Under the pieces are notes generated by a model, which saw only the letters and a list, made by a program, of their open reading frames with translations, was not told the origin of the DNA and did no database searches. A program made the position numbers and the translations under genes. Below are positions 24,351-55,786 of a DNA stretch of 64,000 nucleotides, in pieces; the first letter of the stretch is position 1, and each line of letters starts with the position of its first letter. Source of the DNA: Antedon mediterranea (Eukaryota > Echinodermata > Crinoidea > Comatulida > Antedonidae); contig NC_092675.1 of the NCBI RefSeq assembly GCF_964355755.1, forward strand, positions 24,468,412 to 24,532,411. The letters are read 5' to 3'.

Positions 24351-25722
24351 ATTGGTCAGATGTTTTGCCCTACTCTGACGTAATTTGTTGCGTATTTTTT
24401 CACAAGTATTACTTGCATATTTTTTCACAAGTCATAGTCATAGTCATATATACTTTATTGTCCATTTAAAAAAAACAGAAATGTGATTTGAAAACTGGCA
24501 AAATACAAAAATATAAAATACAATTTACAAAAACACACACAAAAAGTTAAGAGGCTAAAAATTGTTAAAATTAGATAAAAATTATCGGTTACATTTTACC
24601 TTTGTACTCTGGAGTTATATAAGTGTATAGCATTAGGTACAAACGAGCACCTAAACCGTTTTGTTTTGGTATTAAGTGCACGTAGTCTTATGCCAGAATT
24701 CATGAGAGCAAATTGTTTGTGAAGAGGATGTGTTTCATCATCAATGATACTTTTTACTTTTTTTAACACATTTTCTTTATACAAGGATTCAACATCAGGT
24801 AAGTGCTCTCCTACTAGTCTAATTGCTCTATTTCCTATTCGATTAAGTTTAATTTTATCTTTTTGCATTGTATTACCATAAAAACAAACATTACAAAAAA
24901 GTATTACACTGAGAATTACAGAGTTATAAAACAATTTAAGTATAGTTTTGTCAATTTGTAGGTACTTCATTTTTCTTAAAATAAACATCCTTTGGTTGGC
25001 TTTGCATGTGGCTTTATTTACATTATTTATCCAATTTAGCTTATTGTCAATTATACAACCCAGATATTTGTACTCATTTACTACTTCAATCTCATTTTCA
25101 TTTATAATCAGAGGTTCTAAGGGTTCTTTAATTTTCCTAAAATCAATTTGCATTTCTTTTGTTTTCTTTATGTTTAGTTTCAGGTTGTTATTGCAGCACC
25201 AGTGATAAAAATCACATCCTAGTTGTCTATAGCTTGTTTCATCATTGCCAGTAATGTATCCAGTGATGACTGTGTCATCTGCATATTTTACTATACAACA
25301 TTCATTTGAATTGGCTCTGAAACTGCTGGTGAACAGTGAAAACAACATTGGGGAGATAACAGACCCTTGTGGCGTGCCAATGCTAACAGTTCTTTTATCA
25401 GATAAAATACCGTTTAGTTTAACATACTGGAACCTTTTTGTTAAGAAATTATATATCCATGAAGTCAATGTGTCGTTTACGTTCATTTCTTTAAGTTTGC
25501 GTACTAATGAACCAGGTTCAACGGTATTAAAAGCACTAGAAAAATCTATATACAAACATCTTACATATGATTTAGGCACATCTAAATGTTGGTAAATATT
25601 ATGTAAGTGGAAGAGCACAGCATCTTCAACACTTCTATTACTCTGATAGGCAAATTAGTATTCTCAATGTACTTAGAATGAAGTACAAATTACGTCAAAG
25701 TAGGGCAAAACATCTGACCAAT
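24351..25722. mobile_element. LINE fragment enclosed by 38-bp inverted repeats
   Basis: The left arm 24351-24388 (starts ATTGGTCAGATGTTTTGCCC) and the right arm 25685-25722 are reverse complements at 37 of 38 positions. Between them lies a minus-strand, 5'-truncated LINE (about 25670 to 24430) whose 3' end is a short (ATGACT)n-type tail near 24430-24450. GAATGCTTTT occurs just right of the right arm and also about 50 bp left of the left arm (near 24292-24301). Either the LINE entered a DNA element with these arms, or the arms belong to a composite foldback that captured it. Confidence 0.75.
24596..25660 (-). CDS. LINE reverse transcriptase, 5'-truncated but open
   Basis: The frame is open to the stop at its low-coordinate end and continues upstream of the first possible start as FAYQSNRSVEDAVLFHLHN, a typical LINE RT entry block. 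Motifs in order are LYIDFSSAFNT (motif A, first catalytic Asp), GTPQGSVISPMLFSL (motif B), IVKYADDTVI (motif C, YADD), NLKLNIKKTKEM, EYKYLGCIID, and a C-terminal RCSFVPNAIHLYN. About 355 codons remain; the endonuclease and N-terminal RT part are missing, as usual after target-primed insertion. The family is a CR1/L2/Rex-type non-LTR element. The lack of internal stops points to recent insertion. It is not a host gene and has no start codon of its own. Confidence 0.85.
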
Positions 25723-27056: not shown

Positions 27057-30000
27057 TTACTTCTTAGAAAAAAATGACCGAATACTGCCAGCGATAGATG
27101 TTCTTTTATCTTTATCAGCGGGCTTCTGTAAATGAAAAGAAACCAAAAATATATAAAAATACTAGAGATTGCGATAGTAAAAATTGGAGTGAAAAAATAT
27201 TTTAATGAAAAAATTATAGAAAATGTTTATTATATAATGGTTGTAAGTACCTCTTTTACTTTTCTGACTTGAACAGGGGCAACTGGTTCCTGAAAAAGAT
27301 GCATATAAAATACTGAACACAACTGTTAAAATAATGTCATACATTCGGTCATTTGGTTGGAAAATTTCTAACACTGTTTCCTACTGTACTTAGATAAAAT
27401 ATAGTATTTCTCTCATCCTGTTACCTGTACCGGCAATTTTTAAAAAGCTGTACATACAAAGTACAAAATTCATTCCTATATGAGAACGTATGTAGTTACT
27501 GTATCATGAATTAATTAGTCCCATATACTATCACTATGTTGTAAGATTACAGTAGCTAGCTATTATACTAGTGTTATTAATGTTGAAACACCATTGAGAA
27601 AAAACCAGTGTTAATTAATCCCTGTTTATACAGATCATTCACAGATGTCAACAGACAGCAGCAACTTTATAGACAAATAAAATAAATTGAAAATGTGATG
27701 ATTATTATACAGTAGTGTGCAGTGAAGTTTCATACAGTATAATAATGAGTGATTAAAGTGGGTAGTTAATGATTGTGCAATTGAAATAAACTGAAAAAAA
27801 TATAACTTTATATAGCTAATATGACATTGACACATTCAAACTACATAAATAACACCAAGAAATCATCATGTACTACTAATAATATGATTAAAAAAAGTGT
27901 TTGTGAAAACAAAGCTGGTTATTAAGGCCAAATGCACATTACCATGCACCATCACCCCTTCCCCCACTCTCCCCAAAGAAAGAACAAAACAACAAATCTG
28001 CTTATAATGTAAGTTAATTTAGCAAGCTCAAAAATGTCTCAGCAGCTAAGTCAAGTGAACCAAAATTATTATACAAAAATGAACTTGTTTTTAAAACAAA
28101 TAAGCAGGCCATGATAACAAAAATTCTCTAAAAAAAAAAAAAAATGATGGTATTCAGAAGATACCTGTATGAATGAAATGCTGCAGAACCAAAAGCAACC
28201 TGTATGAATTAAATGCAGTTGCAAACCAAAAGCAAGCAGTTGTCAATTATTTTTGGCACCAGTCATTTTGGCCGCCGTTTATAGAACGCCTAAATTCATG
28301 ACATGCCATTCTCATTACTTCATAGCTTTACTTACCAATCTTCTAATATGGCAGGGTAATAAATACATTCTCAACTCAACTTGGTGTTAGCCAAATGAAA
28401 ATGATATTTGTCCTTTTTGGCGAATCATGAATTTGGGCGCTCCATACTTGGTGGGCAAAATGAACAGTGGCCGATATGCACTGTGACCAAGCAAGCATAC
28501 CTTTTCCCCAATAAGACTAATGTAGGAGGCTCGACTTACAGCTGTTTCACCAGACGCATTTGTAGTTTTTTCCTTAGATGTGAGACGGTTTGGCGTTCTT
28601 CTTACACTGGCTGTATCACTGCTTGCACCTTCACCAGCCATAGCATTTCTTGGGGAGAGATAGTCTTCTTGGGGCTATGTGAGGAACAAGTTATTCTTGC
28701 TTTTGCCTTTCTTTTAAAAACTACTCCAAAAAGTAGTTGTATATAGGTTTCATTGTACATTATACAAATAAAAGATGTCAAATTCAGTGGTACGAATATT
28801 TGAAAACATAGAATATTTGATATTTGATATGTAAATATTCGTACCAAATAATAACATTTATTTATTTTGTATAACACTTTTATTCAATTCTTTCAACAAC
28901 TGTGTTGTTTCACCCTGGTACAGTAAATGAATGTGCAAGACAATGACATAGAGTTTAATACAAATTTTATTTTATTTCTAAAATATAACGAGGGTGGTCC
29001 ATTCAGTCGAAGCTGATCATTATCAATGCTTATAATTGATATATGGACAATACTTTAAACCTCTCTGCTCTAAGCCCATTTTAAATGCATATTCAGTACC
29101 ACCATTTTAATGGGGCCATTAACAAATGAGAAAAAGGGTGGAAATGATTAGTCATAATAAAAAGAATAGAATTGAAATATCAATGCAAGAATCTATATGT
29201 GTCAGTTGATAGCAGGTGATGTGATTTTAATCTTTTGTAAAAAAAAAAGTGAGCTCATGATAAGGCCAGGCAAATTACAATATATGGTTCATATCAGCAA
29301 CATCTTGGTGCAGGATTTTAGTAAACTTTCCTCTTCAGATTATAATCACATGCGCAAACACATTGACTCAAGGTCAACAGGTCATAGTAATTATAAGTAT
29401 CCTGTTAGGCCAACACTTTTACTATGGATATATGAATACAAAAAGTCATTTTGTGAATAGAATGTAACATACTATCCGCTATTTTCATTTTTCCCGGTCA
29501 ATCTCAGTTGTTTTATTATATTTCTTAAAAAAACAAGAACATTTTATGATAATTTCCAATGAAATCAGTTGATGAGAACCATATAATGTACTTCCCATGG
29601 CCTAAGATTAAAATAGGATTAATTAATCATTTCACCAACATTTTTATCATGACCATCATTTTTTTTTTAACGTTTGGAAAATTTGTAAAACTTACTGCAA
29701 TTGGTTCAATTCCTTGGTAATCATCTGATTCCGATTCATTAATGATCAGCTCTGCATAATCAAAGTCATCAGATACCTGAATAAAAGTTACTATTCATTA
29801 TCAAATTTCCATACAAAATTGTTAATACTAGGCCTATAGTTGTATGGGAAATTCTGTCTCAAGAACAAATATCTAAGTTTGAGACTCTCAAATTTGTTCA
29901 AGGTTGACTGGAGGATATTGATCAAACTATTTATTACATTATAATTATATACATACACTTTCAGTACTAGTGTAATGTGGTAAAGATTTATAAAACTATA

Positions 30001-33000
30001 TGACATTTTGTTAAATTTATTATAAATTAATTAATTATAGTCTGAAATATTATATTGTAATGAAGAAAATACAGAAAAGCATACACCAATCCATTGCAGT
30101 ATTGGTTACTATTAATGGGTTACTATTACAGTATTACTACGTAGTATTAATAGGTTACTATTATTTGGTTACTAAAAATACTGTATGTTGTTTACAAAAG
30201 TACAGATTACCATTACAGTATGGTTTACCATAGAGATATTATAGTTCACTATAATATCTCTATGGGTTTACTCAGTATGGTTTACTATTACAATCAATAA
30301 AGTCGGCTCTTGAAATGATGTTTAAATCTATAGTTCATAATATATATAAATAACAGTACAAATTTGTATTTATCTTAATTAAATCATCTCCAAATGTTCA
30401 TATCTAAACCTTTTTATTCCCCAAATAGGCATCATTTCCCAGGGCCTTGCCACCTGACTCGTCAGGTTTAACCTTTTAACAGTAGGCCTATACCATTGAT
30501 TGGTTGATTGATTTATCATTAAGAATATTAATAAAATGCATCTACATTAATGCTAATAGTACAAAATACACATGACAGCCACATGACCACTTCTACCTAA
30601 ATCAATCGTTACAATCTAACTTAGTCACATGTCTATTACTAGGTTACAGTTTGGTACTGACTCCTACATATGTAATTATTAGAGTAATGTGTTATTAATT
30701 AATATTAATTAATACACACCTGTCCACATGCTTCAGTTAAGTAGTCAGAATAAGGAGATACTGGATTCTGTAAAACAAAATGCATTTCATTTGAATTAAA
30801 ACATTTAAAATAATTTTTATCTAGATTTAGTATTAAGAGTATTAATTTATTTACAGACATTCAGAATTATAAGTTAACTAAATTTTCAATGAAAAAACAA
30901 CTCAACATCCCCAATCAAAAGGACCAATCCAATACTGCGAAGTATTGTAAATCCACAAAGAAAGCCCTATTAAGCTCTGTCTACACTATCAAACTTTATG
31001 TGACAAAAAAGTTTGATGTGCCCAAATATGGTTGTGATATGCCCAAACATGGAAGTGATATGACATCATCATGTCCATATATGGGCACATCACATTTTTT
31101 TGTCACGTAAAGTTTGATAGTGTAGACAAGGCTTTACAAGCAAAATTAAGGTACAGATATATTATAACCTGTGTATCTTGCGATGTAATTAATTAACTAT
31201 TTATTATAATAAATTATTTATCTGCTTTGTTAATGGAATTGTATTTGTATGTCTTTCTATAATCTAAAAAAGAAAAAATTGTTAACCATAATTGTTGTAA
31301 CTTTTGGAATTTTCCTCTATTATATATGCATGCATTTCTTTAATCATGGACCATTTGTAAGAACATTATTTAAATGAAAATGTCATCCATGTAAAATAAG
31401 TTTATAAATAAATAAATAAATTATACAGTAGATGTGTACCAATACCTTTTGGTAGTATGCAACCATCTCATTTAGTGTTTTAAATACTGGTAGCTCCCCA
31501 ACCACAACATACTTGCCATTGCGTAATTGATCAATCATAAAATGCTTAATTTTTGATGGTGTCCTAAAAGAAAAACATTTTTTCCTTATTAACATGTACA
31601 CTGTAAAATCACTGCAACACTTCATGACGGAAATGTACATAGGTAGTCTAGCATACGATGACATACGATAGGTGTGTAGGCCTATATACAGGAACATATT
31701 TTTAATATTATAGTAGTGTAACCACTCACAATTATACAACAAACAAGAAATATGTACAACATTTACATAAAAAGAACTTATAATCAAAATATTCAAATTG
31801 AAATGTCAAATTGAACCTAAAGGAATTCATTCTCAAACCATGGAGGTATATACCTCCATGCTCAAACACACGCAATGTGAATACCACTAATTACATAATA
31901 TTGCCTACCATTAAGAAGTTAATAGTGAGAAATACAGAAACAATGTTGATACTGAAATATATGATATAAATTTTTAATATTGTTTGGAATCTGGTATAAT
32001 TCGACTCAAACCTTTTCTTAAGGCTACAAACTACATTGTGATCTGATTCATAAAACTGATACACAAAACTTACTTAATTGACATCGAATAACCAAAGCGA
32101 CTTTCACTAACACGTATCAAGAAACATCCAATTGTTTTATTTTCCAGTAATTGCTCAGATGCTCTGAAAATGGAAAATCAATACATTTAAAACAATGAAC
32201 CATCAGAGTAGTATTCGAAAATCATGTTCATCCAACAATACTGTGTATGTGTCTTTAGCCGAAAAGAGTAAGTGATTGCTACTGGCAGCGAAAGGTCTGT
32301 GGGTCCTCAGTTACAACCTCTACATTTGATATGTCCCTTTCAATTAAATGAGGCCAATATTTCATAAAGTGACAACTGAGTGAAGTGAATCTAATAATGT
32401 AATGACTCAATTAAATATTAGCGATGGTAGACAAAGAATGAATATTAAATCAAGCATACATTCCCAATAATGAATTTTTTTAATTACTGTACAGAATCTC
32501 AGTTATTCTGCTGTGATTTGACAAAGGGTAATAAATCTTACTTTACATATTACTTTATGGAAGTGATCATAATTGAAATAAATGAAATTATAAAAATAAC
32601 CAAAAAATCAAGGGTCATAACTTTATGACTATGATGATAAGGACTTTACATTTAATAATGTCTTGATAATTTCACAAAACTTATTCTTATCTATTTTCCC
32701 TTTCACACCCATATGCTATACAGTGTATGATATAGTTGTTTTACAACAATTAGTAGATTGTGTTAGGAAAAAAAGAAAATTCAAAAATTGAATCTATTTT
32801 ACAGTAGGCCTATATAAACTTTTACACATGCACAGTATATAAAGATAGGCCTACCCACCTCCTCGTAATGATACCATGAAACCAAGGCGCAAACTGTCCA
32901 TCTGATGTCTGTCTAACTTGGTCTGTCTGTGTCTGTTGAAACCAACGTACAGATGCTGCCCGTGTTCCCTTTTCGCCAAACTTTCCAACCTCTTTTGTAC

Positions 33001-36000
33001 GAATAAATTCATCTTCCAAAATGTCCTCTTGATCTGTATCACCCCCTGACTCATGGGCCTAAGTTAAAATATTTTTGGGTAAATTATGAGTGCTTGATCT
33101 ATCACTAACTGGCTCAATAGTTAAAAGTGTCACCAGAATGGGTTACTCCTAACACCGTTCACTCTACCCCTAAAAAATGGCATTATTGATACTACAGAAA
33201 AGGTGCCTCCCTGAATGCAAAGGTCATACTAAATGGTTCAAACTACTCACTTCATCTCTATTCTCTGCTGTAGTAGATGCAGGAGCAAAGTTTACCGTTG
33301 GTGGTGGTGGTACATCAAGAATTTGAATGACTGGTGCTGGTTCATTCTTTTCATCAAAATAATCTGAGAAAAAGTGTATACAGCAAACCGGTCAACAAGA
33401 GTATTTTAGTATGCAAGTTACAAAGTGAAATGCTATGAACACATACTGTGTTACTATTTACGAATGTATATTAAAAGAAACCATATAACAAAATTGTTTT
33501 TTTTTTTAACTGGGAATTTTTCAAATGGTATTGAGGCTCAATAAGTTTTAATTTGTTTTATAAACATCACCTTATTGTTGAATGCAAACTCTTGCAATTA
33601 AAAGTTACCTGAAGGAATATCCTTATCTTGTTCAACTAATTTCAACTGGATTTGTTTGTTCTCTAAAGACAATTGTTTCATCTTTTCAAGAAACTCCTTT
33701 GCCTCTCTTGCTTCACGGCGTGCAACTTCCAACATTCGTCGGAATTTGACACGTACCAAGAAGCCTCGTACAACTTTCTGCATCTGAATGGCAGACTTTC
33801 CCATTTCAACCATTTTCTCTTCCAGTTTTTCTTGATGATAGTACTTCAGGAATACTTTTGTCTTTCTACAGATATAGGATTAATATTTATTTATAATATA
33901 TTTAAATTTATGATACTAGAAATTAATTAATCAATTATATACATTTAACTCATTTAGAAATTTTAAACCACCCAGTGATATACTGGAAATTAATTAATTA
34001 AAGGCATAGGGAAATTCTAAACCACCCAGTGATGTACTGAATTGATTACTTATATACATTTAACAGGCATATCATTATATTTATAAATTACTACTTATTA
34101 TAAAGCTGCCTCAACCAAGATTTGAACCTACAATATTCTGTTTGATATACAAACATCATACCATTAGACCACTGGGGCTTTTTGATATGGTTCTTCAAAA
34201 TCAATTATAATAATACAGTAATAAAACAATACAAAATGACTTCACACTTTATTCCCTTGAAGTTTAATAAAATAGATTCATCTTTTATTTCTTTCTTCCT
34301 TCCTTTAGGCGATGATGTTCACATGTTAGTAGCTGTGTATTAATACTACAGATCTCATTATTATTATGATAGTCTGACTCATGCTGAAATTGATTTGTTT
34401 CTGTGGCATAAGAGTGTGAACTATAGCTGAATATGAAATGGGTCAGACCATCAGCGCACAAATGTCAATGCCTTGCATATATTTTAGGCTCAACTTATCT
34501 TTAAATCCAATATCATGTGTTTTTTTAAATATATTAATTATTACACAAAGGCACCTCACAAGTTGGAAAGACCTTTGCTTCAAGGTGCCTCAGCTAACAA
34601 ATACAACATTTTAAAACAAAAAGACAGAAACATCAATCAAATCTTCCAGAATTAACAAGAAATTGTTGTACATAATAAAACACTAAAGCATTTACACAAG
34701 TCGAAAGAAGATCATGTTTTATTATCATCATAGACAATTAAGCATTGGATTTGATTGATTATTCTGTGCATATATCATCACTACAAATTATCCAAATTAT
34801 GTTAAATTGAAAAAGTATACAAATATTTTTGAGAAAATGTAAAATAAAAAATATAATATAATAAATCCTACCCAATCTGCCAATCAGTTAGTTTCATGTC
34901 AGTCAAAATCTTGATAACTCCACGGTTATCTGTTACAAGGTTTGGACTTAATGCCAAGATACGGTATCTGTAGAGGGAAAAAAACAATTACAAAAAGTCA
35001 CTTTACAAATTTTTAAATTTTGAATGTTTTTTTAATCTATTTTTGCTGTCATATTTTCATATTCATGTTGTTAATTTTAAGGATTTTAAACACATTTTAA
35101 ACAGAAGTAGGTTGATTGCAAAATGTAACTAAAAATTGTGTCTTTAGACAAAATTCAGCATCGTGTTATTTATGCATAATTAGTGATCCATTACAGATTT
35201 TCAAACACGTACACATTTATTTAATGCAAAGTTTAACTTTAAATGGCATCCCTAGAGAGACATCTACAATATAAAATATAACAGTAATTGATACGGTAAC
35301 CTTTTAACAAAATCTGCAAAAAGAGGTCGAACTGCATATCCAAGCTTCCTAATCCTAGTTGTCTCAAGCATGCCTGTGTAACGGAGCTAATAATAAAGCA
35401 TAATGCATTAGTGTGGTACTTCAAATCTGTTCTATAAAAGCATCATCAACCTTTTGTATATCTCAATATTTAAGTTAATAGTTGAAATAAATACAAAAAA
35501 AATGCTTGTATGCTTTTTTCATTGTCCTTTATATGAAATATATAACATAAATGGTTTGTCCCTTTCGATTTGACTTTGTACATTGGATACATTTGTGATG
35601 TTCGGTGTTTGAACAATTATCTAGTCCATGATGAATACTGTTATTTATACTCTATTCACATGAGGAAATAATATTGTTATAATAATTGTAATGTATGATT
35701 CTCACCTGAGCAGTGACAAATTTTGCTTCAAATTTCCGAGCAGCTTTTGAAGTGTTTGGTTTCACACATCGAATAAAATGAGGGTTGGATAGATCTAGTC
35801 GTTCCATTAACACTGACAGTGAGTTCTGAAAATTTAATTATAGTAAATGTAGGCTTACATACAGTACAGTACAGTGTATAGATATTAGTTTTATCTATTT
35901 ATTTGTTGACCATGCACCTTTGAATCAGTGGCATTCCTTATGTTAAGATTTTTAAAAATTGCAATCAATATTAAAAATTACAGAAAAAATATGTTAAATG

Positions 36001-39000
36001 TTGATGCATATTATGTTTACATAGTTTGTAAAACATTATTAGTTTATTTTTATTCCATTGAATTGTAAATTTTTAGTTCACTACGACTTGGCCTTAGAAA
36101 TTATAACAATTACCTTAAACTGTGCACAAACAGTAAGTTTCTTCTTTCCAGCTGCAGCCTTCATTACTTTAGGTGTTCTCTAAATGTAATATACAATTTA
36201 CATTAATATTGTATAAATTATATAAGTAAGCCTATAGTTCTCCTAAAGTTAACATAAATCTGTATTCTTATTAGCCGTTTACACAAAAATTTAGTGGGTT
36301 CTTTTATATATTCTACTATTAAACAGAACGTACGGTGACCATGCGCTCATGGATATGCACCAAAACTTTGGTATAAGCTTCCGGCTGAACTCCAAACAAT
36401 GAAATCTTACGAGTTATTTTTCATACAATATCAGCAAAACTTGAAAACAAAAATATGGCTTCTATATTTTCTTTACATTTTGGCTCGCAAAACTTTTGTG
36501 TTTGGTGTATCAGGTGAGTTATATTATAATCTATGCTCTTTTCACACATAAATTGCAGCATATGCGGTAATGAAGCTAGTATTGCTACAGAAAGTAGTTC
36601 TTTTTAGTTAATTTTATCGTTTTATGTGTGAATTGGGGACAATTTGCATCTTTACAGAACAAAAAGGATTTTTACACACAATCTGGAGTTTTGTGAAGTT
36701 ATTGTAATATAACCGTCTCACTGATCTGTGTAAAAAAAGCTATACTATAGAATTCACTTATTTCTAACTCAATGTTCTTACTCTTCGTCTTCTTGATTTA
36801 ACTGTTGATTTTTTGCTGCTTCTTCTCTGTAATGCAAGCGTTCCTGTGCGTGATATAGTACCTGAAAAAATTTTTTTTTTAAATTATTAATGGTGCAACA
36901 GTAATAATGCAATGATGATAGACAGTTCAATCCAGTTTGTGTAATTTGTGTAAATTGATATAGGTAAATATGCACCGTAATTGAGCTTAGCTACTAGTTA
37001 AGATTACATTTAAATGTCAGGTAATTGAAACAGATGTGTGAGGTGTCCTGAATGATTGGTTTGGTCTACTAGTGTTCCTGTTCCCAGACATGAAAGAAAT
37101 TGAACAAAAGTTTTTTTTTTAGAGCCTGTTTCTACTTAGCAAGAAAATACAGATTATAAATACCATATTTAAAAAAAACAGTATTTTTTTGCCAGCAGAA
37201 GAATTGTTTATTGGTTTTAAAATCCCAATTGATTGCAATTCTCGTCAAATACCAGTTTTTAAAATGTTTCTCTGGAGAAATGTTTAGTTGCAAAGCGATC
37301 CTTTTCATAAAAATGGTTTCTTAGGAAACTGTTCTTTTGACATTTTTCAGTAGAAACATATTTTACAAAAAGTGTTCCACTAAAAATATACCTTTAAATA
37401 TAAGGCTAAGAAGATGGATGCTTGACCTCTGAAACACTTGCATAGTTCCATTTGGTAATGAGTCACGATTCTTCTCAAGAAAATTGTTAGCATTGTATTC
37501 AACCTATAAATAAAATACAGCACTTTAATATTTAATATTTTAACATACAATTATCACAAATAAAATTTTAAAAATTCTTGTCATACTAGTAGAACGCCTA
37601 CTTTGTTTCTATGAAACAATGAGAGAAATAAATGCGCTATATAGGTAGATACTAAAAGTGTGTTTTAAAACCTCATTATAATCACGGAGTGATGATGATG
37701 AAGGTTTGAACTAAAAACCCTATGTCTATATGGTAAGCATAATTATACTGACCCGTCCAGCATAGTGGTCAATGCTGAAATTATTACTGGTAGACACTTT
37801 TGCCTTTATGTAATGGTGATTCTTAGAAAAGTTTTGACCCATCTTCTCAACCAGTGAATGGTCAGTTCCCTGTATACACACATAACAAATATTATTGAAT
37901 ATTTAAAATAAAAAATATCCATCTGGAAAAATGTAATTATTAGTGACAACTTGTGAAACTTATTTGAAATTAATTGAATATTAAATAAGTAGGTTATAAA
38001 AATTGTTAAACTCATGGTGATAATGTTGAATTGACTTTATAATCATTTTGCTTGGATAAAGATGGTGTTAATACAAAATAACAATTTGATTTTAAATTGT
38101 TCTAGAATGAATTCATTCATACATGCAATTTATACAATTTTGAATTATTATAATTTTTAAGGCATATAATGAGAGAAGATCAATTATATAATGTTAAAAA
38201 ATGATCATACAATTACAAGTAGGCCAAGTAAAAAAAAATGTAGTTTCATGTCCAAAATTTATTCCTTTTTTTTTACTATTTACTTTATTTTTATAATTTA
38301 TTTGGTAATGGAAAACTGAAAATTATTATAATAATTTTACTAATGATTGCAAGTGGGTTTTTGTCTAAATTTGGCAGTTTATTACGTTTACGGATTAGTT
38401 TTCCTTTGGTTTTCCACAAGCGACTTTGAGCACTTTGGTGGATATATTCACTCAACAATGTTGAGTAAATTGAATTTCTTTTTTTAACTGAATAAAATCA
38501 TTTGTCTTTTTTATGAAAAAGAAAATATATATGTGTATGCTAATCATGCTAATTTTATAAGGGAGTGGATGTGAAACTAACTTTTTTTTTGATTTGGCCT
38601 TATTAAATTATGAACTATTGCACTCTGAGGAAGCAATATCTTGAATGATTTATAAGAGAGCCTACGGACATGTGATTGACAGATAAGACAAGTGATTTGC
38701 TGTTTAAAATTAATATTCACAAACCTTGGGGAAATGGCTTTCTTCATCCAGGAGTGCAAATATTCCAATTGGCTTTGCAAGAAACAGATCCTTTATAAAA
38801 AATAAAATTGATTGTTTACAGGCTTTGCACAAACAATCACTATACACACTACTAAATAAATTATTAAAACAGTGCTCATATTCAGAACATATTCCTGATA
38901 TAAGCAATGTTTCAATAATTTGACAGTATGATTTATATATATTGCACTGATGAAGGGCTAGTGTTGCCCGAAAGCTCTACTAACTTTTCTGACTGTTTTA

Positions 39001-42000
39001 CTTTATCGTTTTGATTTAGCTTTTCACTTTCTTTTTGTATCTCCATTGAGATCCAGCCACTGATACCCACAGCATTGTCATTTTTTTCAGTAATTTGCCT
39101 TTGGATTTATATATACATACACACTATATACACACAGCAGGCAGAAAACATGAATTCTAAACCGCCTGGTGGTATACTACACTGTACATTGGCAAAAATC
39201 TGAAATTTTGAGACAGTGAAGGAAATTGTGAACCGTGATGATGTCACTAAAAATTTAAAGTTCTAAAAATTTTTGTTTGTTTGTGGTAATGTTTTTTAAC
39301 AATATTCGAAAAAACATGTAACAACATGAATATAGTAGAACAGTCAGAACAACAGTTAATACATCTTATCCGAAGATATTTTATTTAAATTATATTACCT
39401 GAACTTAAAGAAAACTACTAGAATAATGGTTTTAAAAGTTCCTATAATAGCATATCATACATAGGCTATTTATATAAAATGGTTAAAATCTATTTTGTAT
39501 AAAAACAGAACGTTGAATACTAACCAACAGTGGCTGGTTGTTAACAAATGGTATATTTTTCCAATCAACTCCTTCATTCTTGTACTCTTCTTGCTCCAGA
39601 AGAAAAATGTGCTATATAAAAATATTAAAATTGGTGTAATGGTCAATTTCTATTTAGAAGTTAATTTAAAGTTTTTTTTTAAACTGGTATTTTAGTGCCA
39701 ATATAAATGGTTCCTCACAGTAAGGAACACGTTTTTATTATAATATGAATTTTATAAAATGGCAACATATAATTCTTCTTATTTCAAAAAATAAATAACT
39801 AAATTTACATGTAAATTTGTTCATAATAGCATGTTATACACAATGATTTGCAGAATTATTACTGGACAGGTGGTTTTTGGCAACATCTTTCTATCCATTA
39901 ATATTTATGGTGCCATAATGCATAATGGGGCAATTAAGCAATATGATATTAACAACAGCAAAAATTAACAGTGCATCTCTCAAACATGATGGTTTCAACG
40001 TGATTGACATTTTCATAAACTTAAATATGAATTTAGGTCAGGGTTAAACCAATTGAATATTAAACTCCTTGATTTAACAGAAGCTTGAGGAAATGCATTT
40101 TTTTGTCCATGTAAACATGTAATAAGATTGTAGAGGGGGCACTACATGTTTTGAAATGTATGTACTTCTATACTACGTTTGCTCATAAATTCCTTGAGTG
40201 ATATGCAATAATTATTTGGGGAGTTGCAGGGGAAACGAAGCTACAGAGAATACACATACTTTTTAAGAGCTTCGGCTCATTACATACCCATTTTGTATCA
40301 AATACGTTTTCCATTCATTATGATTTAGATTAAACTTATAGAAATATTCTTGTAAAAGAAATACTATATATATAATTATAAATAAATAGTATGTATAGTA
40401 CCGCGAATGATGATTTACTTACCTGGTTAAAGAAGAATTGAAGCTGCTCATTTGCAAGGTTAATGCAGGCTTGTTCAAAGCTGTTGGTTTGTAGATGTTC
40501 AAATCCAAATATATCTAAAATACCTGTGAATATACAGAAAAGGAACATTTGAATAAAAGCTGCCCTTTTACTGTTATCTGGTAGTTAGGAGGTGAGGCAG
40601 TGCATCAAAACATGTTGGGAATATGGATCACTTTTAATAGGCGCCTAATTTAACTATGTTTTTACAAATGTTCAACACACAGATGAGCTGGACCACCTTT
40701 CAATGCCAAAGCCTCTGGTATATTCAGGTTTAAGCCTCCCTAAGAATTTGAGAAAGGTCCAATTAAAAATAATTGTTCTTACCAACTTCTGTACATTTAC
40801 TTGCATCTAGATCTTCTTCAGAGGCTAGAAGCTGGTTAATTTTATTCACAATCCAACTAAAGAGACGGCCATACAAAGCTTTAGTCATAGCATCTCTAGC
40901 GTCACAGGCTTGCTCTGCAGTGTAGTTACGTTGAAAGACTTCTCCATGAGCAGAACTTGTTGCATATGTCAAAATTCCACATAACTCATCCTTCTGCATT
41001 CCAAGCAAGTCCTACTCAAATAAAACATTTAATACATTTTTAAATTTGCGTTGAATCAATAACTAGATTAAATAAAAGAAAACAATAGGGTGTATTATTT
41101 TGTAACATAATTTGACCGCTGAACTAAATACTCACACAAATAACTTGCACTGCCTGTGGATTCTTAATGATGGCTGCATCATTATCATTTGTATCAAACT
41201 CAATTTGACCGAATGCCAGAACCGCTGCAAGGATAACAAACATGTCCTCTTTTTCCTAAAATACAATCAAAAGTCAACAATTACAGAATAACTACTTTTT
41301 GGACCACTGAGGTTTTTAATTAGTGACCATAACAGAACATGCTTAAAAGAGCTTAGGGTCTAAGCAACAGAAAAATGGAGCTACATAACATTTTATTAAT
41401 ACTGTATCAAGAGTTTATAGAAAAAGAACTATTCATTTCTTTATATTTCAGCTTCAATCCATGGAAAACTGTAAATATCAGATATCTTTAAAATCTAATC
41501 CACAAATTATATATATATACAGTAAATGTAATATTAATGATGGTTTGGCCAAAACAAGAGGGAAAAAGACATGAATAGCTTTTACATATATACATTACCA
41601 GATTTCTCTGTTCTGTTTCTGAAAAGTTGTAATTCCAAGTTGATGGTTACAAGAATAATCTTCTTATTTGAAGATCATTTTATTTACATAAAAATTAAAA
41701 GACCAAGAAAATAGAAAATTAAAATGTCTAACTCACCTCATCAAGGAAACCAACCAGATCCATTGCATTATTCACTTCAGAAAACAGTTTTTTTGTTTCT
41801 GCTGATTTTGTCTGAACTCTTCCAGAACCATTTGTTAAATATCTAAACAGAAGAAAATAATTTCACAGTTTGTCTATTTAAAGTGTTTTATTGTTTTAAT
41901 ACTTCTCTAAGGTAATAATTTGTTGTATTAACGCCGGAAAGTTCAGAACTTACACTGGGTAAGTTTAGCTCAACGGCAAAGATATCTTGCAGTGCTTATA

Positions 42001-44713
42001 TCCTATTAAGGCCCATTACAAATACTAAATAAACAGCTTTACTCAATATAAAATAAAAATATGAAACTGATTTACTAATCTTACTTGTAGTTTTCTGCAT
42101 GTTTTAGTTTATATCTTTTAGAATCTTCTGTACTTAAACCAGCAAACATATAGTAGAAGATATGAAAATTCTCTTCCTCTGAATTTTGATAAATAACACG
42201 TGACTTCTCAAGCAGATATTCTGAAATTTTAGCTCCCATGACTTCATAAAAAAAACACAGTTGTATTAGAAATATAAAAATAAATTTCTACAAATGGTCA
42301 CAAATACCAATTGATAATTGTGCTGCACCAATACTTTGGCATATTCTTACAATCGAGAATATCTACTTTTCTACGTTCTACTAAGTACAAATAATTTGAA
42401 CATTCCTTGTACTGTATTTGGAAAAGATTTTAAGTTTCAAATAGAAAATAAGGCCTAGTGTTTAACATTCATACTTTTTTATTTACAAAAATGTTTTTTA
42501 TTATTCAATTAGAATTTTGAGAACAGAAAGAAATAATATGATGGCAGAAATAAAGTTCTAGAGATGGATGGGGCATGGTCTGACGAAAAGATGAAAGGGT
42601 AAATAAGTTAGAAGTTGGATGTAGAAAAGTAAAGGTGACCTGCAAAGATATGATAAAAGAAAGATCAGTTTGGAAGAAAATGATGCACAAAACAGGAAGA
42701 AGTAGAGAGATCGTGTAACAGCATGGGTGAGTGTCAGTGACTACTTGGAAGAAGGAGAAAATTGCTTTTAATAAAAGATGATGATTGGTATGCCTTTAAC
42801 TTACCAGCACCATTCATGAATTTAAGCTGAATATATTTTCCAAATCTACTTGAGTTATCATTCATAACTGTTTGTGCATTGCCAAATGCCTCAAGTAGAG
42901 GATTCACCTATAAATATAGAAAAAAACAAAGCCATTATTATTTGAATTTACAGTTATTTACAGGTTATGGAGAAAGCATCATCTTTTACTCTTTTCATGC
43001 ATATAATTCTAGTAAGTTATTATTTGATTTTTTTAATTTTTCAACTCTTTGATATGAAGTTTATTATATCTGCATATTTGTTTAATTTCATATATCTTTC
43101 ATATTTATATTTAGTTTGTGTCTCTTGATAAAATGTCTTCTTTCTTCTTCTGTAGGCATATTTTATTAGTTATGATGGTTGTCTTTTCTAAAATTTTATC
43201 AGGTAATATAACTAAAATAAACGCATTTATCATTTTTAATTACCTGTAGAATCTGTTGTTCAAGTTGAGATTTGCCATGACAAATGTCAATGAGGTGTTT
43301 AATGATCAATTTGGTGCTCTCTGTCTTCCCAGCTCCACTTTCACCACTTTAACAAAAAAAGAATATCTTTAAAAAAAATTATTTTTAACACCATACTGTT
43401 CAATTGCATACTTTGTTTTTTTCAAAAATATATTATTCATTCTCAATTGAGGACATTTGGATTGGGTTCTCTGTGTACCAACAGCATGCACAGTGCAACG
43501 CTCACAATGTACTGCTGTACATGGAAGGGGCTGATATTGATCAGACACGTCACCAAGGTTACCTCCAGAAATGCACTGGGTTCTTGAAAGCGCCTACGAG
43601 TCAGATGTGTACACTAGAACTTAGTACTCGTCCGAGAAGACTTGTTCTATTATCGAGGAGAGCATGAACCATTTGTCCATTTTATGGCACTATATGCATA
43701 TTTTGTTTATCTGTTGTAAAGACCAGATAAACCACTGCTTTATACTTGGGTCAGAACGCAAAAGCAATGGTCTCACAAAAATAAATTACCTGATAACAAT
43801 ACACTGGTTTCTTTTACCCCCTATTGAACTTCCCGTCACCATAGCCTGATATGCAGCATCAGATACTCCAAATATATGTGGCGGATTCGCAGTACGCTTT
43901 TGGCTCTTGTATTTTTCAGAAACCTAAAGAAAACATTATTTTTATTGAATTGGATGAGATACTATACATTATATTTTCTTTTGATTGTCTGAAATGTAAG
44001 ATTTAAATATATATTATATAAATCCAAACTTGCGTTCCATATTTATATAATAATAATGTATTGTTGTATTGTTTTGATATAATAACAACAATGCACTTTA
44101 GTACTTTATGCCCTCTAATATTGGAAAGATAAGGCATTACAAACGTTTTTCAATCAGGGTACTACTGTAATAAAGTACATTAGTACAAAATACATTAATT
44201 GGTTTTGTTTCAATTATTACTATGCACTTTTAATGTAACATTTCCTGTTCGCTATCAAATAAAACAGTATGCATGCATTATTACGTTCTCTGTAAACATT
44301 GACCTTGGATTTATTTACTATTGTTATGATACGCATGGCTTTGTTATGGTAATTTTTGTAAAGTACACCTTCTTACCTCTTTCCCATAAATCCCAATGTC
44401 TCGAAATGGATTCACGGCTACTAAAATATCTCCAACATAGGTCTGAAAAGATTATATATTTTTAATATTAACATACTTTGTTTAAAATGCATTGAATTTT
44501 CAGTACTAAGCCTACTACGTCGACTCTTGTACCCACTACCAATGACGTGTACTGTAAACAACCAAGAAGGGGCTCTAATTATTAGCCCTGAAAGTAACTC
44601 ACGTAAATTTTATCCTGGTTGTAGCGGCATTTCAGTTCTTCAAGTAGAATTGCTTCATCAAGATTAGAGAGAGTTGCTAAATCGTCTATATTTCCAATAT
44701 CAGTTCGAGACAT
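27057..44713 (-). CDS. Unconventional myosin with C-terminal SH2 domain (class XXVIII-like)
   Basis: 29 minus-strand GT-AG exons (high-low): 44713-44603, 44442-44377, 43923-43790, 43346-43244, 42907-42805, 42241-42085, 41842-41737, 41255-41136, 41011-40783, 40523-40423, 39611-39525, 38790-38725, 37869-37753, 37503-37392, 36861-36782, 36179-36114, 35825-35706, 35386-35301, 34967-34872, 33865-33609, 33363-33251, 33058-32859, 32163-32074, 31563-31446, 30767-30720, 29776-29696, 28674-28540, 27289-27251, 27125-27057. Total 3210 nt, 1069 aa plus stop, in phase throughout. Motor about 1-697: P-loop GESGAGKT (105-112), switch I NDNSSRFG (154-161), switch II DIFGFE (380-385), basic loop 2 (538-564), actin-site HFIRCVKPN. 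One IQ motif ([13 protein letters not shown], from 713), short coiled coil to about 770, PPPP segment, SH2 about 869-946 with FLIRVSES, acidic Tyr-rich tail, end SIRSFFSKK. No kinase domain precedes the motor, unlike class III. As I recall, IQ + coiled coil + SH2 is the class XXVIII layout; the class needs a phylogeny. Confidence 0.9.
28755..28940 (+). repeat. Interspersed repeat TATACAAATAAAAGATGTCA, copy 2
   Basis: It matches the repeat at 26145-26330 in its start block, its GTAC-ATATTTG block and its CCTGGTAC right part. In this copy the centre also folds back: TTATACAAATAAA near 28759 pairs with TTTATTTTGTATAA near 28860. It lies in the myosin intron just above exon 28674-28540. Confidence 0.55.
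30228..30265. repeat. Perfect palindrome, 18-nt arms
   Basis: CCATAGAGATATTATAGT (30228-30245) and its exact reverse complement (30248-30265) are separated by TC. Both sides carry CAGTATGGTTTAC words, so the palindrome is embedded in direct repeats of GGTTAC/GTTTAC between about 30100 and 30290. It lies in a myosin intron. Confidence 0.75.
30971..31136. mobile_element. MITE with arms of about 60 bp, CTTGTCTACACTATCAAAC type
   Basis: The left arm (from 30971) and the reverse complement of the right arm (ending 31136) share GTCTACACTATCAAACTTTA, GTGACAAAAAA and GATGTGCCCA, with few mismatches over about 60 bp. Only about 45 bp lies between. The 73-codon open frame over it is a by-product. It is in the myosin intron between exons 31563-31446 and 30767-30720. 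Confidence 0.75.
31446..32885 (-). other. SH2-domain exons of the myosin tail
   Basis: The SH2 domain is split over three exons: the end of 33058-32859 ([10 protein letters not shown], alpha A entry with the conserved Trp), 32163-32074 ([20 protein letters not shown], with the phosphate-binding Arg at about residue 894, then RFGYSMSI) and 31563-31446 ([17 protein letters not shown], then [13 protein letters not shown]). Both the invariant Arg and the beta-D region are kept, so the domain should bind phosphotyrosine. Exon phases 2, 2 and 0 match the frame of the whole gene. Confidence 0.85.
31839..31860. repeat. Perfect palindrome, CATGGAGGTATA family, copy 2
   Basis: A 22-nt perfect palindrome starts CATGGAGGTATA. 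It is flanked by TCAAAC on the left and CTCAAAC on the right, as at 1797-1831. It lies in the myosin intron just above exon 31563-31446. The shared flanks show that this is one repeat family. Confidence 0.7.
34107..34178 (-). pseudogene. tRNA-like pseudogene or SINE head
   Basis: On the minus strand 72 nt start GCCCCAGTGGTCTAATGG, with an A-box (TGGTCTAATGG). A stem around TATAT and a B-box-like GGTTCAAATC follow, and the 3' end is TTGAGGCA. The acceptor arms pair except for one C-A mismatch (and a terminal G-T). The T stem does not pair well and the anticodon loop is irregular. It is more likely a decayed tRNA copy or the head of a SINE than a working gene. It lies in a myosin intron. Confidence 0.4.
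36782..36861 (-). CDS. Myosin loop 2 exon (phase-corrected)
   Basis: The long open frame across this region reads [14 protein letters not shown] and ends at a stop, but the phases of the flanking exons require another frame. Read so, it gives [20 protein letters not shown] and then KSRRRR, joining IFKG upstream and RTPKVMK downstream. A Ser/Arg/Lys-rich stretch is expected for actin-binding loop 2. The donor is GTAAGAAC and the acceptor TTTTTTTCAG. Confidence 0.8.
38941..39110 (+). mobile_element. Penelope-like fragment with hammerhead-type core, copy 1
   Basis: CTGATGA (38947-38953) is followed by a stem GGGC-loop-GCCC and GAAA (38970-38973), the order CUGAUGA / stem II / GAAA of a hammerhead ribozyme. 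Then CTCTACTAAC could give a very short stem III and a UA cleavage site. Downstream lies a conserved block ending ATCTCCATTGAGATCCAGCC and ACTGATACCCACAGCATTG. A second copy is at 57345-57510. Penelope-like elements and retrozymes commonly carry such ribozymes; stem I is not convincing here. It is in a myosin intron. Confidence 0.5.
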
Positions 44714-47700
44714 ATTTAATGATTACAATCCTCAAAGTGTCTACTACTATTAGGTAGTATAATACTACCAACTCATTATATCGACAACAGGTGCGGTCAT
44801 TCCGAATAAAAATAGAAAAGGTATTGTCACTAGCATATACAATACAAACAATATATACCAGTATCTGATTGGTTACCTTTATTTAATGTATGCGTCATAA
44901 TGCATCATCAGGTAAGTTATTGAAGTTTACCGATCAACCATGATATAACGGGCGTATACAGACGTTCTGTTACGTCAATTGCTGTAAACTGAATTAATCA
45001 TCACACAATTTAATGAAAAATACTAACAAAATAACATAAGCCTATCTGGTTTCCTAACCTTATTTTGGTTTTTTTAGATAGTACCTAGGTGATCAGGTCT
45101 GGGGGACGAGCTTTAGGCCTACAACGTTACACTATTTACTTCCACACTGTGCTAATAGTATCCTACCTTGCAATAATGTGTATACATAATATTTTGGACT
45201 ACAAACTAGAAAACTGTACATTAAGTTCTGAAACTGTGTATGAAAACAAACATTATTTTATATCGACATCAATATTCTAGAATCAGAATAAATTCTAGTA
45301 AAGGACGATCATACGGATTAACATTTACAACCTAAAAGACAAAAGTCTTTTAAAGAAAAAATCGTATAAAGTTGTGTAAAAATAGAATGTTTATGAACAG
45401 TTACAACTTATATTTACCTATTGGTTTTGCTCACTTTATATTCCTGTTTTGTGATATAAAAGGCATTATACTTAATTAAAATAGGTAAATCTTAACTTAA
45501 CTCAAATATATTTTCCAAATCCACTGAATTACTTTGATCCAGGCATTGTCTCTTTCGGTTTGTAAACTGATGTATTTCCGTCAAAATGTTCCCTTCAACG
45601 GATCAGCTCTTATAAGACAATTTAATTCCAGCTCGATTTGGGCTATTTCATATACCATCAAGTTTTCGTGGCATTTTTACATATGTGTTCGTCTATATTT
45701 TTATCTGCATACTTAAAAATATCTCCTTCCTATTCTCACTATCGATAGGATGTCATTGCCCAATTGATTGATTGCAACATTTACAATTTGACAGAAAATG
45801 AGCTAATACATCTTCTGAATCGGCTGGGTACATTTGATTTGCGTTCAAGCGCTTCATTTTAAAAAACATGGAACTCTTTTTGAGTGATTATCCTGGAAAG
45901 CATTCTCGGTTTGTGGTTCAAACATATCTCCATTGTTGGACTTGAGTATCCGCTGTTCCTGGTAAGTTGTTGTCATTCTCTATTGGGTCACGATTGCTGA
46001 GATTATCAATATATATTTTATTGTTCTTGTTGTTATTGGTGCTTTTCCTCCCTCCTATTGTCATAGGCAAATTACTAATGACAAACATTATCAAGCAAAA
46101 CAATTCATTCCTTCAATATCATGCATGGGTGCTATCTTGTTCTTAAATAACAAATGAACACATTTCTCTACTCTCTTTTTTTTTACGTGTTTTAAAACTT
46201 TCTTTAACAACTTTTTCTTTGTAATTTTAGTGGAGTTGCTTGCTATTCTCGTACGATTAGGGTTACTTCTTTTTTTTTTCAATTTACGAATAGTTCGTTG
46301 ATGAGGTCAACCACTTAAATTATCTAGGCTCAGTTAAAACATCCACTGCAAACTGCACAATTGATATTAAGCCAATGTTTGGAATGGCTAAAAGATAGAT
46401 AGAACTTCAGGAATGATCACGGTCTTACAACAGCACTGAAGATGAAATTAATCAAAACTTGTATGGAGTGTATTTCTTTACGTTAAGAAAGCCAATGCGA
46501 ATCGGATGCTTGCTGCTGAAATGTGGTTCTTAAAAAGATTACTAAAAATCACATGGGAAGAGAAAAGAACAAACAAAACAAGGAACTTGGTGTGAAGAGA
46601 CAACTGCTTTGAGAGATCGTGAAAAGAAAGCTAGCCTACGTTGGCCACATCTTAAGAAGCGGAAGTGCACTAACACTACAGATTTTTTTTTCGTCAACGG
46701 TTATTTTTATTTCAATATGAGATGAATACAGAAAAAGTTCACATAATAGACAATGAAGCAACTAGAATCATATTGAGTATATACACTAAAAGAATAAAAT
46801 ATTCTTGTCACGTAACGTCACGTAAGACCCTTTTTAAACTAAAATCATATATTTAATTAACTACCGGTAAGTAAACAGATAAAGTAAATCAGACAATAAA
46901 CCAAATATCGAATAAATGAAAACAAAATATTAATAAGAAACATCAGTACGACATCATCAGATAATAGAAAGAAGGGTAGAAGGGAAGAGAAAGAGAGGAC
47001 GGCAGAAGAAACAATAGTTTGATAACATCAATGAGTTGACAGGATCGAATTTAGTTCAAGCCAAAACGGACCTGCTTGGAAAAACAAATGAGATGTGAAC
47101 AGATGGTAGCCAATCATCAGTATTGACGACAGCCGAACTTGAACTTGAGTACGCATTGTGATTGCATTTTTTTATTTTGTGATAAACCCCATGATTATAT
47201 ACCATATATTTCATTTCTTTTGTTGTATATGCAAATAAATCCTCTTGCACTTAATAATGTCATTTCAAGGTAAATAATAAAAGGACACTTCTTGGTGAAA
47301 CAGTCTAATAAATACAATGTAGACTGGGTTTTGGAGTTGCATACATTTGATATATTTATTGTATCTAAAACATAATTAGCATAAAAAAGACTATGGTCAA
47401 CTTTTAAACATAAATATATTATATTAACATATGTATAAAGAATAGTAAAATGAAATATGTACAAGATGAAATAGACTACTAACAACACTAAAGTCAGTAT
47501 TTACATTATTTACAAAAAAAGAATGTTCAGCTCCCAAAACCGCGTAATTCATGTTGGAAAATAGACATTATTACTGTAGGCCTATATTACATTGTTACTT
47601 GGTACATGGCCAAACCATTTTTTTTCCTTTAACAATTTAAATATATTGAAATGTTTTTTAAATAGTTCTACAAATAAAAAAAAAATAATCTGTTTTTTCA

Positions 47701-48336
47701 AACTTAATAAATACTTTGTATAAATTAAAAACTTAGAAAAAGTAGTTTTTTATGTTTAAAACTGTTAAATTGATAATACAGTAGTAATACTGTTTGTAAA
47801 ACTTGAAATTAAAAAAGCATTATACGGTTTGTGTTTCAAACCGTTTCTAATATACATGTTCTTATAAAACTTACACTACTTTCTTTGGTGTTTGGAATTT
47901 AAAAAGTCAAATTTATATTGTCATAAAATACAATAAATGTATATTACTGTATAAATCATCAATTGTTTTTAAACTACAGTAATATAAAATGTATGAAATT
48001 AAAAGTAAAAAACACAGGTATGGTACAGTAGGTGTCAACAAAAACAAAGCTAATATGGGTTTAGTTTTACTTTCTGTTGATAATACTGACAATAAAAACC
48101 AACTGACAAACCAGTAATGGTTCGAGTAATAAGGTACGCTAAAATGTAATCTTGCTTTTAAGAAACAGGCACATACCTGCTTCACACTATAGTTTTAGGC
48201 AGTGCAACTTAGCAGAATTGAACACTATGGCTATTATGAAAGCATACAATGGTAATTAGTATTAACATAGCAAATGTCAGAGATTATGCATATAATTATG
48301 CAAATAATTATGCAAAATTAATCAAAACTTGAGATA
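44714..48336. other. Region between myosin start and CSPG4 stop
   Basis: No intact gene recognised. It should hold the myosin promoter/5' UTR (right of 44713) and the CSPG4 3' UTR (left of 48337). A decayed RTE-like LINE lies at 46290-46690. The rest is AT-rich, and short open frames on both strands lack domain support. A serine-rich/poly-Lys frame at 46091-46282 (minus) looks like low-complexity sequence. Confidence 0.5.
46290..46690 (+). pseudogene. Decayed RTE-like LINE, 3' part of ORF
   Basis: With frameshifts, the plus strand reads EVNHLNYLGSVKT, then AEMWFLKRLLKITWE, EKRTNKTRNL, RQLL, and VKRKLAYVGHILRSGS. This succession (YLGS; W-RR-L-I-W; the KR-L-Y-GH-LR block) is the conserved C-terminal region of RTE-type non-LTR retrotransposons. 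It contains several frame breaks and stops, so it is inactive. Confidence 0.7.
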
Positions 48337-51300
48337 TTAGACCCAATACTGGCTCTTTTTTAATTTAGGAGTATGCATTCCATGAGAGTCATGAGATAGA
48401 CTATAAGACAATGAACCTGTGCCATTTGAATTTATACTTACCATCGACGATTTCTTAATAGAGGACGGAGAAGGAGGACGTCCAAGTGCTGTGACAGTTA
48501 CCTGTGGTACTGCTGGACTTGCCACAGGACGATGTAGTGAACCAGATCCATTGTATGGAAATTCATGCGATGCTGCACTATAATTCACAGCACACACATT
48601 GAGAGGAGGTAAAATACCAGCTCGTCCTGGTATTGTTGAAGCACCCGGGTATGGCCCACCATCCATGTCTGGATATGGCGACTCTCGTCCACTATTACTT
48701 TCCTTTCGCTTTTTTTTCACTACAACTAAAACTACTACAAATATTATGATAAGAAAAGCAATGATTACAATAATGATTGGAATGATAATTGGAAACAGAC
48801 TACTGTCCGAAGGAACATTGTCAATATTCTCTTTAATATACACTGGTAATGTTGTAAGTGGTTCTTCTGTGCCAATATCTTTGGCAACACTTGACAGATC
48901 AAAGTCTGCAACAAAATTAGGCCCAACTACTGTACCACTACCTGTATCAAATGAAGTTGTTTCAAATATTTCTGTAGTAGGTTGAAAGGGAGAGGGGAAT
49001 ATTGTAAAAAATCCATTTAATTGAACAGGTTGGGCTTTTATTGAGCTAACAAGTAAACTGTACATATCAGTCAAAGTTTCATTATCTTCAAGATCAACAT
49101 GATGCATTTCAACAGCAACAAAACCTTCTGTTAGATCCATGAATGTAAATTCTGATAATTGTATCGATGTTGATGCATTTATTATGGCACCATAAGCTGG
49201 GTTATCTACAACGGTAAAGATTAGATCTGTCTCAGTATTTTCCTGAAGCTTGGTTGCACTGATTTGATCTGTAGAAAGTTGGAATGTATCTTCAGTAGTG
49301 ACATTGAAACTGTTAAGAACAAATGCAGGTACAACAGTGATGTTAAGCGAGCACTCTTGAGAAATTGTCTCATCAACTGTTGCAACATATGAGAAACTAT
49401 CACCAGATACAGAAAGATCCCACTGTACGTATTGAACCAGTTCCATGTCAACGTCATCTTGTAAAAATACTGTTACAATTTTTCCTTGCATCACAAAATT
49501 TCCAAATTTAGGTGCTGTAGTAATGTTGTAAGCAAGTTGCAATTTGTTACCATTTGTTGTTGAATTTAAATTGGATCTGTCAAGAAATATTTCAGTATTT
49601 CCTTGAAGAAGAAAAATATCTTTACCAGGCATTACGTCTATTGTGGTTGGAATGACTTTAACACTGAGGAGTTTGAACAAAGGTTTATGAGCACCATCTG
49701 AGACTTCAAAGGTAATGGCACCTGGTGTTGTACTGCCATCCTGAATAAACAGTATATCATGTGCGTTTATGTCTCCTTGTGTGAATGTCATGACATGGAG
49801 CTGTATGTTAGGTTTTAAAGTAATATACCCATTGGTTGGTTGAGTAAGAAGTTTGTATACTATCTGATCTGGTGGAGTGTCTTGATCGATGGTCTGCAAG
49901 TCATTTTTAGTGACAACATATTCTGCTCCTTGTGGAACCTCCATCAATAACTGCTTTGTAACAATCTCAAACATTTCATCATTAACTGGAGTAATAGTAA
50001 TATTAATTAGTTCACTTTGACTAGTAACAACCAAATTCTGTTCATCTACAAGTGCAACTTTGATTTTTATAAAGTCTTTTTCAGTGTCTGAATCATCATG
50101 CACATATGTAATCTCATTCTTTTCTATGTTTTGATTTGTAAAGGTTTCATTTAATTCCATATCAATGTTATTTAACTTGAGAATTCCTTTATTTGGAAGT
50201 TCCGTTACAGCATAAAGAATTTTGAGATTTTCATCTTTTCCATCAGAAAATGATGGAAATGTAAACAGCTTCTCAGTAAACAGATTTGTGACACGAATGA
50301 CAACTTGTTCGCCTTCTGTTACATTCAAACCACTATTATGTATATTCATGCTCTCATTAGCCTGAAGTGGGGTAATAGTAATGTTAACCATTCGATTAGT
50401 GAGGTTTTGTGAAAAAGGAACAAAAACATCAAATCTGAAAGAATCATGTATTGCTGGATTATGTATATCTGTATGTAGATAACATATAGTGCCATTTGAG
50501 ATGTCATTCTGTGTAAACTGGCTAACTTGAAGGTGTGAAGAACTGGTTGCAGAAGTTAATTTTACAATCTCTCCATGCTGAGGATTCTGAGTGATGACAT
50601 AAGTGATTGGATATCCTTGAATTTCCTGATTGGCAGTAACCAGCATGTTATCAATTGTGATTGGTTTTAAAGAGTGAGTACTAACTTTGAAAGGTTGGTT
50701 ACTTGTTAAGCGTATTCTAAGTTCTTTTGCTGTAATGCTGAATATCTGTCGATTTGAAGTGTGGGTACCATCTGTAACATGAAAGGGAAATCCACCCGTA
50801 CAGGAACCTAGAAGAAAAACAAATAAAATGGAAATTACTATTATACAATCAATAAAAGGCATTCAGGCATTATTAATAACATCAGCGTCATAACTGAATA
50901 AAAGTAATAAACTAATTTACAGCACATTTCCAAGAAATCTCTTATTTGGAGTGACATATTTTTTAATGAAACATGTTTATTTATGATTAGTACACATTGA
51001 ATATTGTATTCGGATTTAGTGTATTACCTCTGTGTACAAAAATGACTTTTTCCTCATCCAGATCTTGCTGGGTAAAGGTCAAAATCGATTGGTTCCTGGC
51101 TCCTTTCATAATCAAGTGACCATTATTTGCTGAAGTTAATGTGTACACAAGTTCATTTGGACCAGAATCTTCATCAACGGTTCTTAGTACATCTCCAGAA
51201 AGAATTGCAGTAGAGTTAATGATAACCCCAAGTCCTTTATTTACAAGAACATTTGGTTTGTGATCATTAACAGTTAGCACATTAACCAGCATTTTGTATG

Positions 51301-55656: not shown

Positions 55657-55786
55657 CTATAATAATAAAAAAAACATGATTATTAGTATACAAATATATA
55701 TTTCTACTAATTAACATACACCATTCACATACTGGCTAAGGGTGGGCTAAAAGTCTTGATTCTTTAAATGTAACAAATTTGTAACA

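Follow-up and report, generated by a model that had tools for sequence, protein, structure and literature searches.

A 64,000-nucleotide stretch of the genome of Antedon mediterranea (hereafter the window) probably carries an intact gene whose product is an unconventional myosin of class XXVIII type, an assignment that we draw from the layout of its tail and from the broad neighbourhood of its motor. The gene is a further example of a known and little studied myosin class that was described in 2007. It lies on the minus strand, with its ATG at 44713 and a stop codon that ends at 27057, and its 29 hand-placed exons join in frame into a coding sequence of 3,210 nt (stop included) for a predicted protein of 1,069 residues. 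The exons are as follows.

Exon 1, 44603..44713, minus strand: start codon and start of the motor (residues 1-37), with an in-frame stop four codons upstream
Exon 2, 44377..44442, minus strand: motor
Exon 3, 43790..43923, minus strand: motor
Exon 4, 43244..43346, minus strand: motor, P-loop GESGAGKT
Exon 5, 42805..42907, minus strand: motor, switch I
Exon 6, 42085..42241, minus strand: motor
Exon 7, 41737..41842, minus strand: motor
Exon 8, 41136..41255, minus strand: motor
Exon 9, 40783..41011, minus strand: motor, TEDS position Glu324
Exon 10, 40423..40523, minus strand: motor, switch II DIFGFE
Exon 11, 39525..39611, minus strand: motor
Exon 12, 38725..38790, minus strand: motor
Exon 13, 37753..37869, minus strand: motor
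Exon 14, 37392..37503, minus strand: motor
Exon 15, 36782..36861, minus strand: loop 2 region, strongly basic
Exon 16, 36114..36179, minus strand: remainder of the basic loop 2 region, and motor
Exon 17, 35706..35825, minus strand: motor
Exon 18, 35301..35386, minus strand: motor, LRYTGMLE
Exon 19, 34872..34967, minus strand: end of the motor
Exon 20, 33609..33865, minus strand: end of the motor, single IQ (residues 712-725), short amphipathic helix (about residues 731-770)
Exon 21, 33251..33363, minus strand: proline-rich linker
Exon 22, 32859..33058, minus strand: linker and start of the SH2 domain
Exon 23, 32074..32163, minus strand: SH2, FLIRVSES arginine
Exon 24, 31446..31563, minus strand: SH2, KHF histidine
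Exon 25, 30720..30767, minus strand: SH2 region, C-terminal edge
Exon 26, 29696..29776, minus strand: acidic tail, Tyr969 and Tyr982
Exon 27, 28540..28674, minus strand: tail, Tyr994
Exon 28, 27251..27289, minus strand: tail
Exon 29, 27057..27125, minus strand: basic C-terminus and stop codon

All 28 introns, which measure 124 to 1,250 bases, have GT-AG boundaries, and their donors agree with the splice consensus, position counts placing a G at donor position +5 in 20 of the 28. No internal stop interrupts the 1,069 codons of the joined frame; as a chance control, the joined introns read in three frames contain 1,062 stops in 14,445 codons (7.4%), which for a frame of the same length would amount to about 79. 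Because the exon boundaries were chosen to keep the frame open, the matches to Pfam families are a stronger control than the count of stops. The Myosin_head family covers residues 10-694 (profile 2-679 of 679, E 8.3e-223) and the SH2 family residues 869-944 (profile 1-77 of 77, E 1.2e-16), with no third Pfam family at E 0.001. The 29 phase-consistent exons that a sequence-only reading had placed at 27057-44713 are thus borne out by the intron boundaries, the open frame and these full-length matches. The gene is apparently intact and would encode an SH2-tailed myosin, under a splice model predicted from DNA alone. That the exon joins come from DNA and not from RNA favours a different reading, in which an adjoining motor gene and a separate SH2 gene have been wrongly merged into one model; we consider this exceedingly improbable, as the junction between motor and SH2 is crossed in a single phase-consistent frame with GT-AG introns, and the introns at the junction (245, 192 and 695 bases, following exons 20, 21 and 22 in turn) do not exceed those of the motor, which reach 1,006 bases. 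Moreover, the fusion of a motor with SH2 is the published layout of the class (PMC2375034).

Several features lie within or around the myosin gene. Intron 19 contains a tRNA match on the minus strand (34107-34178; Rfam, 37.6 bits), the sole Rfam match in the window at the gathering threshold, which is either a true tRNA gene or a repeat derived from a tRNA. An inverted repeat at 30972-31134, between exons 24 and 25, has 67-base arms that are 87% complementary and a 29-base spacer and is possibly a small mobile element, and a second inverted repeat with 42-base arms (74%) lies between exons 26 and 27 at 28760-28874. The palindrome TAGGCCTA occurs 28 times in the window against 0.5 predicted from base composition. 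Downstream of the myosin, a retroelement is marked by a reverse transcriptase ORF on the minus strand (24596-25654; RVT_1, E 1e-23). The upstream neighbour, at 48337-55735 on the minus strand, encodes laminin G and many Cadherin_3 repeats and is unrelated to the myosin; we take it to be a CSPG4-like gene.

The motor of the predicted protein is complete. Pattern checks find the ATP-site motifs intact (P-loop at residues 105-112, switch I at 154-162, switch II at 380-385), together with LRYTGMLE at residues 627-634 and a glutamate at the TEDS position, residue 324, and the segment around loop 2 (residues 534-586) has a net charge of +18. The motor is followed by one IQ motif at residues 712-725, found by a pattern that could miss a degenerate second IQ, and the Pfam IQ model is unlisted for this protein at E 0.001. 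For the helix after the IQ, the heptad moments of the overlapping stretches 731-775, 735-765 and 742-770 were matched by 141, 152 and 288 of 5,000 shuffles, respectively, so that a coiled coil is weakly indicated; it would be short, and it is the least well-founded part of the tail layout. Between this helix and the SH2 domain lies an acidic, proline-rich linker. In the SH2 domain the arginine of FLIRVSES is intact (pattern FLIRVS, residues 891-896) and the KHF histidine is also present, the two residues that would contact phosphotyrosine. The final 124 residues include five tyrosines (952, 955, 969, 982 and 994), several of them next to acidic residues, and the net charge of the tail passes from -10 at residues 945-990 to a basic C-terminal end. 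In the architecture that had been proposed for the protein, the motor, the single IQ and the SH2 with its FLIRVSES arginine therefore stand, the IQ by pattern only, and the coiled coil is weakly indicated (141-288 of 5,000 shuffles).

The tail layout points to class XXVIII. This class has a tail made of an IQ, a short coiled coil and an SH2 domain (Odronitz and Kollmar 2007, PMC2375034), which bears out the class named for this layout in the sequence-only reading. That survey, which covered the sea urchin, lists members in Nematostella, Xenopus tropicalis, chicken and some fishes, gives the class as lost in most metazoans, and includes seven orphan myosins of Monosiga with SH2 domains (PMC2375034). 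A class-28 member is also reported for Capsaspora (PMC5583752). The Antedon protein has the same succession of motor, one IQ and C-terminal SH2, with the short coiled coil weakly indicated, a comparison made by published tail layout and not by motor sequence. The earlier estimate of the gene as a strong candidate for undescribed biology was overstated, since the class was published in 2007 (PMC2375034) and SH2-tailed myosin III-like proteins of choanoflagellates and filastereans and a class-28 myosin of Capsaspora are also described (PMC3942036 and PMC5583752, respectively). Our search of the open-licence literature found no functional study of class XXVIII.

Other classes were compared by the domains that define them. 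SH2 tails are found among class III-like proteins (PMC3942036), but the myosin described here has one detected IQ and is without the N-terminal kinase of class III, for which Pfam gives no match in the protein at E 0.001. The ATG is preceded, four codons upstream, by an in-frame stop with no AG between the two, and hence an upstream coding exon cannot join the start of exon 1; the minus-strand ORFs further upstream (46091-46306, 47195-47500 and 47913-48194) have no Pfam match at E 0.01. We reject a class III kinase fusion on both grounds, the missing Pfam kinase and the upstream stop that closes this form of exon 1, and the kinase-free N-terminus that had been read from the sequence is upheld. 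Class XVI myosins carry N-terminal ankyrin repeats, and Pfam at E 0.001 detects none in the SH2 myosin. At the same threshold it contains neither the C-terminal MH2 of class 80, the MH2-neighboured myosin of this genome being a separate gene on contig C1, nor a MyTH4 tail domain.

To place the motor among the myosins of the same genome, we built a tree from 10 partial in-genome motors over 477 columns, with no named reference sequences. The scan of the assembly (354 Mb, 18 contigs) scored 65 of 335 candidates. The alignment initially had 11 rows, of which a muscle-type row from contig C3 was dropped at 195 columns, and the rows are partial because exon pieces were aligned to the query. Myosin loci at C1:19.15, C2:7.66, C1:24.74, C1:6.1 and C3:38.3 Mb, as well as other members of the C3 cluster, stand outside the tree, and given these loci and the fraction of candidates scored, the tree may lack a class III motor that the genome encodes. 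The C3 cluster is a large expansion of near-alike myosin heavy-chain genes, in which a single motor exon (profile about 342-408) recurs at least 19 times over approximately 5.5 Mb of one contig (C3:19.6-25.1 Mb), a count that is a lower bound given the 65 of 335 candidates scored.

In this tree, the SH2 myosin clusters with two myosins that have ankyrin or MH2 domains as neighbours (SH-aLRT 99.2, UFBoot 99; FastTree 0.992). The first is a class XVI-like motor at C5:784.8-800.0 kb with ankyrin repeats upstream, and the second a class 80-like motor at C1:18083389-18098632 on the minus strand, where part of the MH2 profile (40-106 of 174) is matched at E 1.5e-10 a few kb downstream on the same strand; in both cases the domains are assigned to the motor by position and strand. 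These are the nearest motors to the SH2 myosin in the in-genome tree, but they differ from it in having ankyrin repeats upstream or MH2 downstream instead of SH2. Within this trio, the AU test returns p values of 0.87 (best tree), 0.25 (MH2 myosin as sister) and 0.10 (ankyrin myosin as sister). The same test rejects a clade of the SH2 myosin with the two MyTH4-neighboured myosins used (p 0.0008) and one with the myosin at C6:17.57 Mb (p 0.008). Raw identity hardly separates the candidate relatives: it is 53.3% (512 columns) to the ankyrin-neighboured and 51.9% (549 columns) to the MH2-neighboured myosin, and the next values are 50.9% for a MyTH4 myosin (395 columns) and 49.7% for the myosin at C7:0.2 Mb (312 columns). 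Among the best 60 of 150 matches to solved structures, the nearest to the motor are myosins VIIa, X and XV, and because no myosin III or XVI structure is among these 60, the structure ranking says little about class.

According to Sebe-Pedros et al. (2014), SH2 domains occur on a choanoflagellate-expanded myosin III-like group and on filasterean members, myosin XVI is related to the holozoan myosin III-like group, and MH2-tailed myosins are present in a sponge and a choanoflagellate (PMC3942036). MH2-tailed myosins are also recorded in annelids and molluscs, and the MH2-neighboured myosin is a suggestive but not a decisive sign of an ambulacrarian. Taken by themselves, the SH2 domains of the choanoflagellate and filasterean proteins would agree with the Antedon gene being a holozoan myosin III-like protein that gained its SH2 independently and is not class XXVIII proper, and the seven orphan Monosiga sequences suggest that SH2 tails may have arisen repeatedly (PMC2375034). 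The in-genome tree, which puts the motor in the wider neighbourhood only, also leaves room for such an origin. We nevertheless judge it unlikely, because the tail order found here, with one IQ, a short helix and SH2, equals that given for class XXVIII (PMC2375034). Membership of class XXVIII remains our preferred assignment.

The SH2 domain was also compared in its own right. Its nearest solved structure is HSH2D (2cs0), at E 8.6e-22 with residues 7-102 of the 102 searched aligned, so that the alignment extends beyond the Pfam SH2 boundary, and the second nearest is SYK (E 1.7e-17). HSH2D, for haematopoietic SH2 domain containing, is a stand-alone adaptor without a motor, whereas the domain that it matches best here is joined to one. 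A search of the genome with the 102-residue region returned six places: two belong to the myosin gene itself and the remaining four, at 33-37% identity, to other SH2 genes. We therefore reject a further copy of the tail, which is single copy in the Antedon genome as far as this search sees. The nearest of the other SH2 domains (C6:7519503) was considered as a relative of HSH2D and rejected, since GRB2 is its best structure match (E 4.3e-7), whereas HSH2D reaches E 7e-6; by motif it is putatively SH2D4-like.

We propose that this class XXVIII-type motor would walk on actin or anchor to it, and that Glu324 at the TEDS position together with the very basic loop 2 may allow actin binding independent of TEDS phosphorylation. 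A calmodulin-type light chain would sit on the IQ, and the motor may be monomeric, given the weak coiled coil, or may dimerise once on cargo. The SH2 domain would dock the motor on tyrosine-phosphorylated proteins, and tyrosine kinases would thereby set where the motor is located and what it pulls or tethers. Direct steering of an actin motor by phosphotyrosine is a reasonable inference. A further step, compatible with this explanation, is that phosphorylated tyrosines of the tail bind the protein's own SH2 domain, in a folded or paired form, and so set the availability of the motor for cargo. The five tail tyrosines, several of them beside acidic residues, are what such self-control would use; however, their phosphorylation is purely putative, and we regard the addition as rather unlikely. 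We hold as very unlikely the wider combination in which the phosphorylated tail, by clamping or pairing via the HSH2D-like SH2 of the same protein, gates the motor, and in which the HSH2D-type SH2 of vertebrate immune adaptors and the tail of this class also have a common origin.

It seems that a single species possesses three members of one motor group that differ in their tails, with SH2, MH2 and ankyrin domains, respectively. A class XXVIII-type myosin in an ambulacrarian would bear on how widely the class survived.
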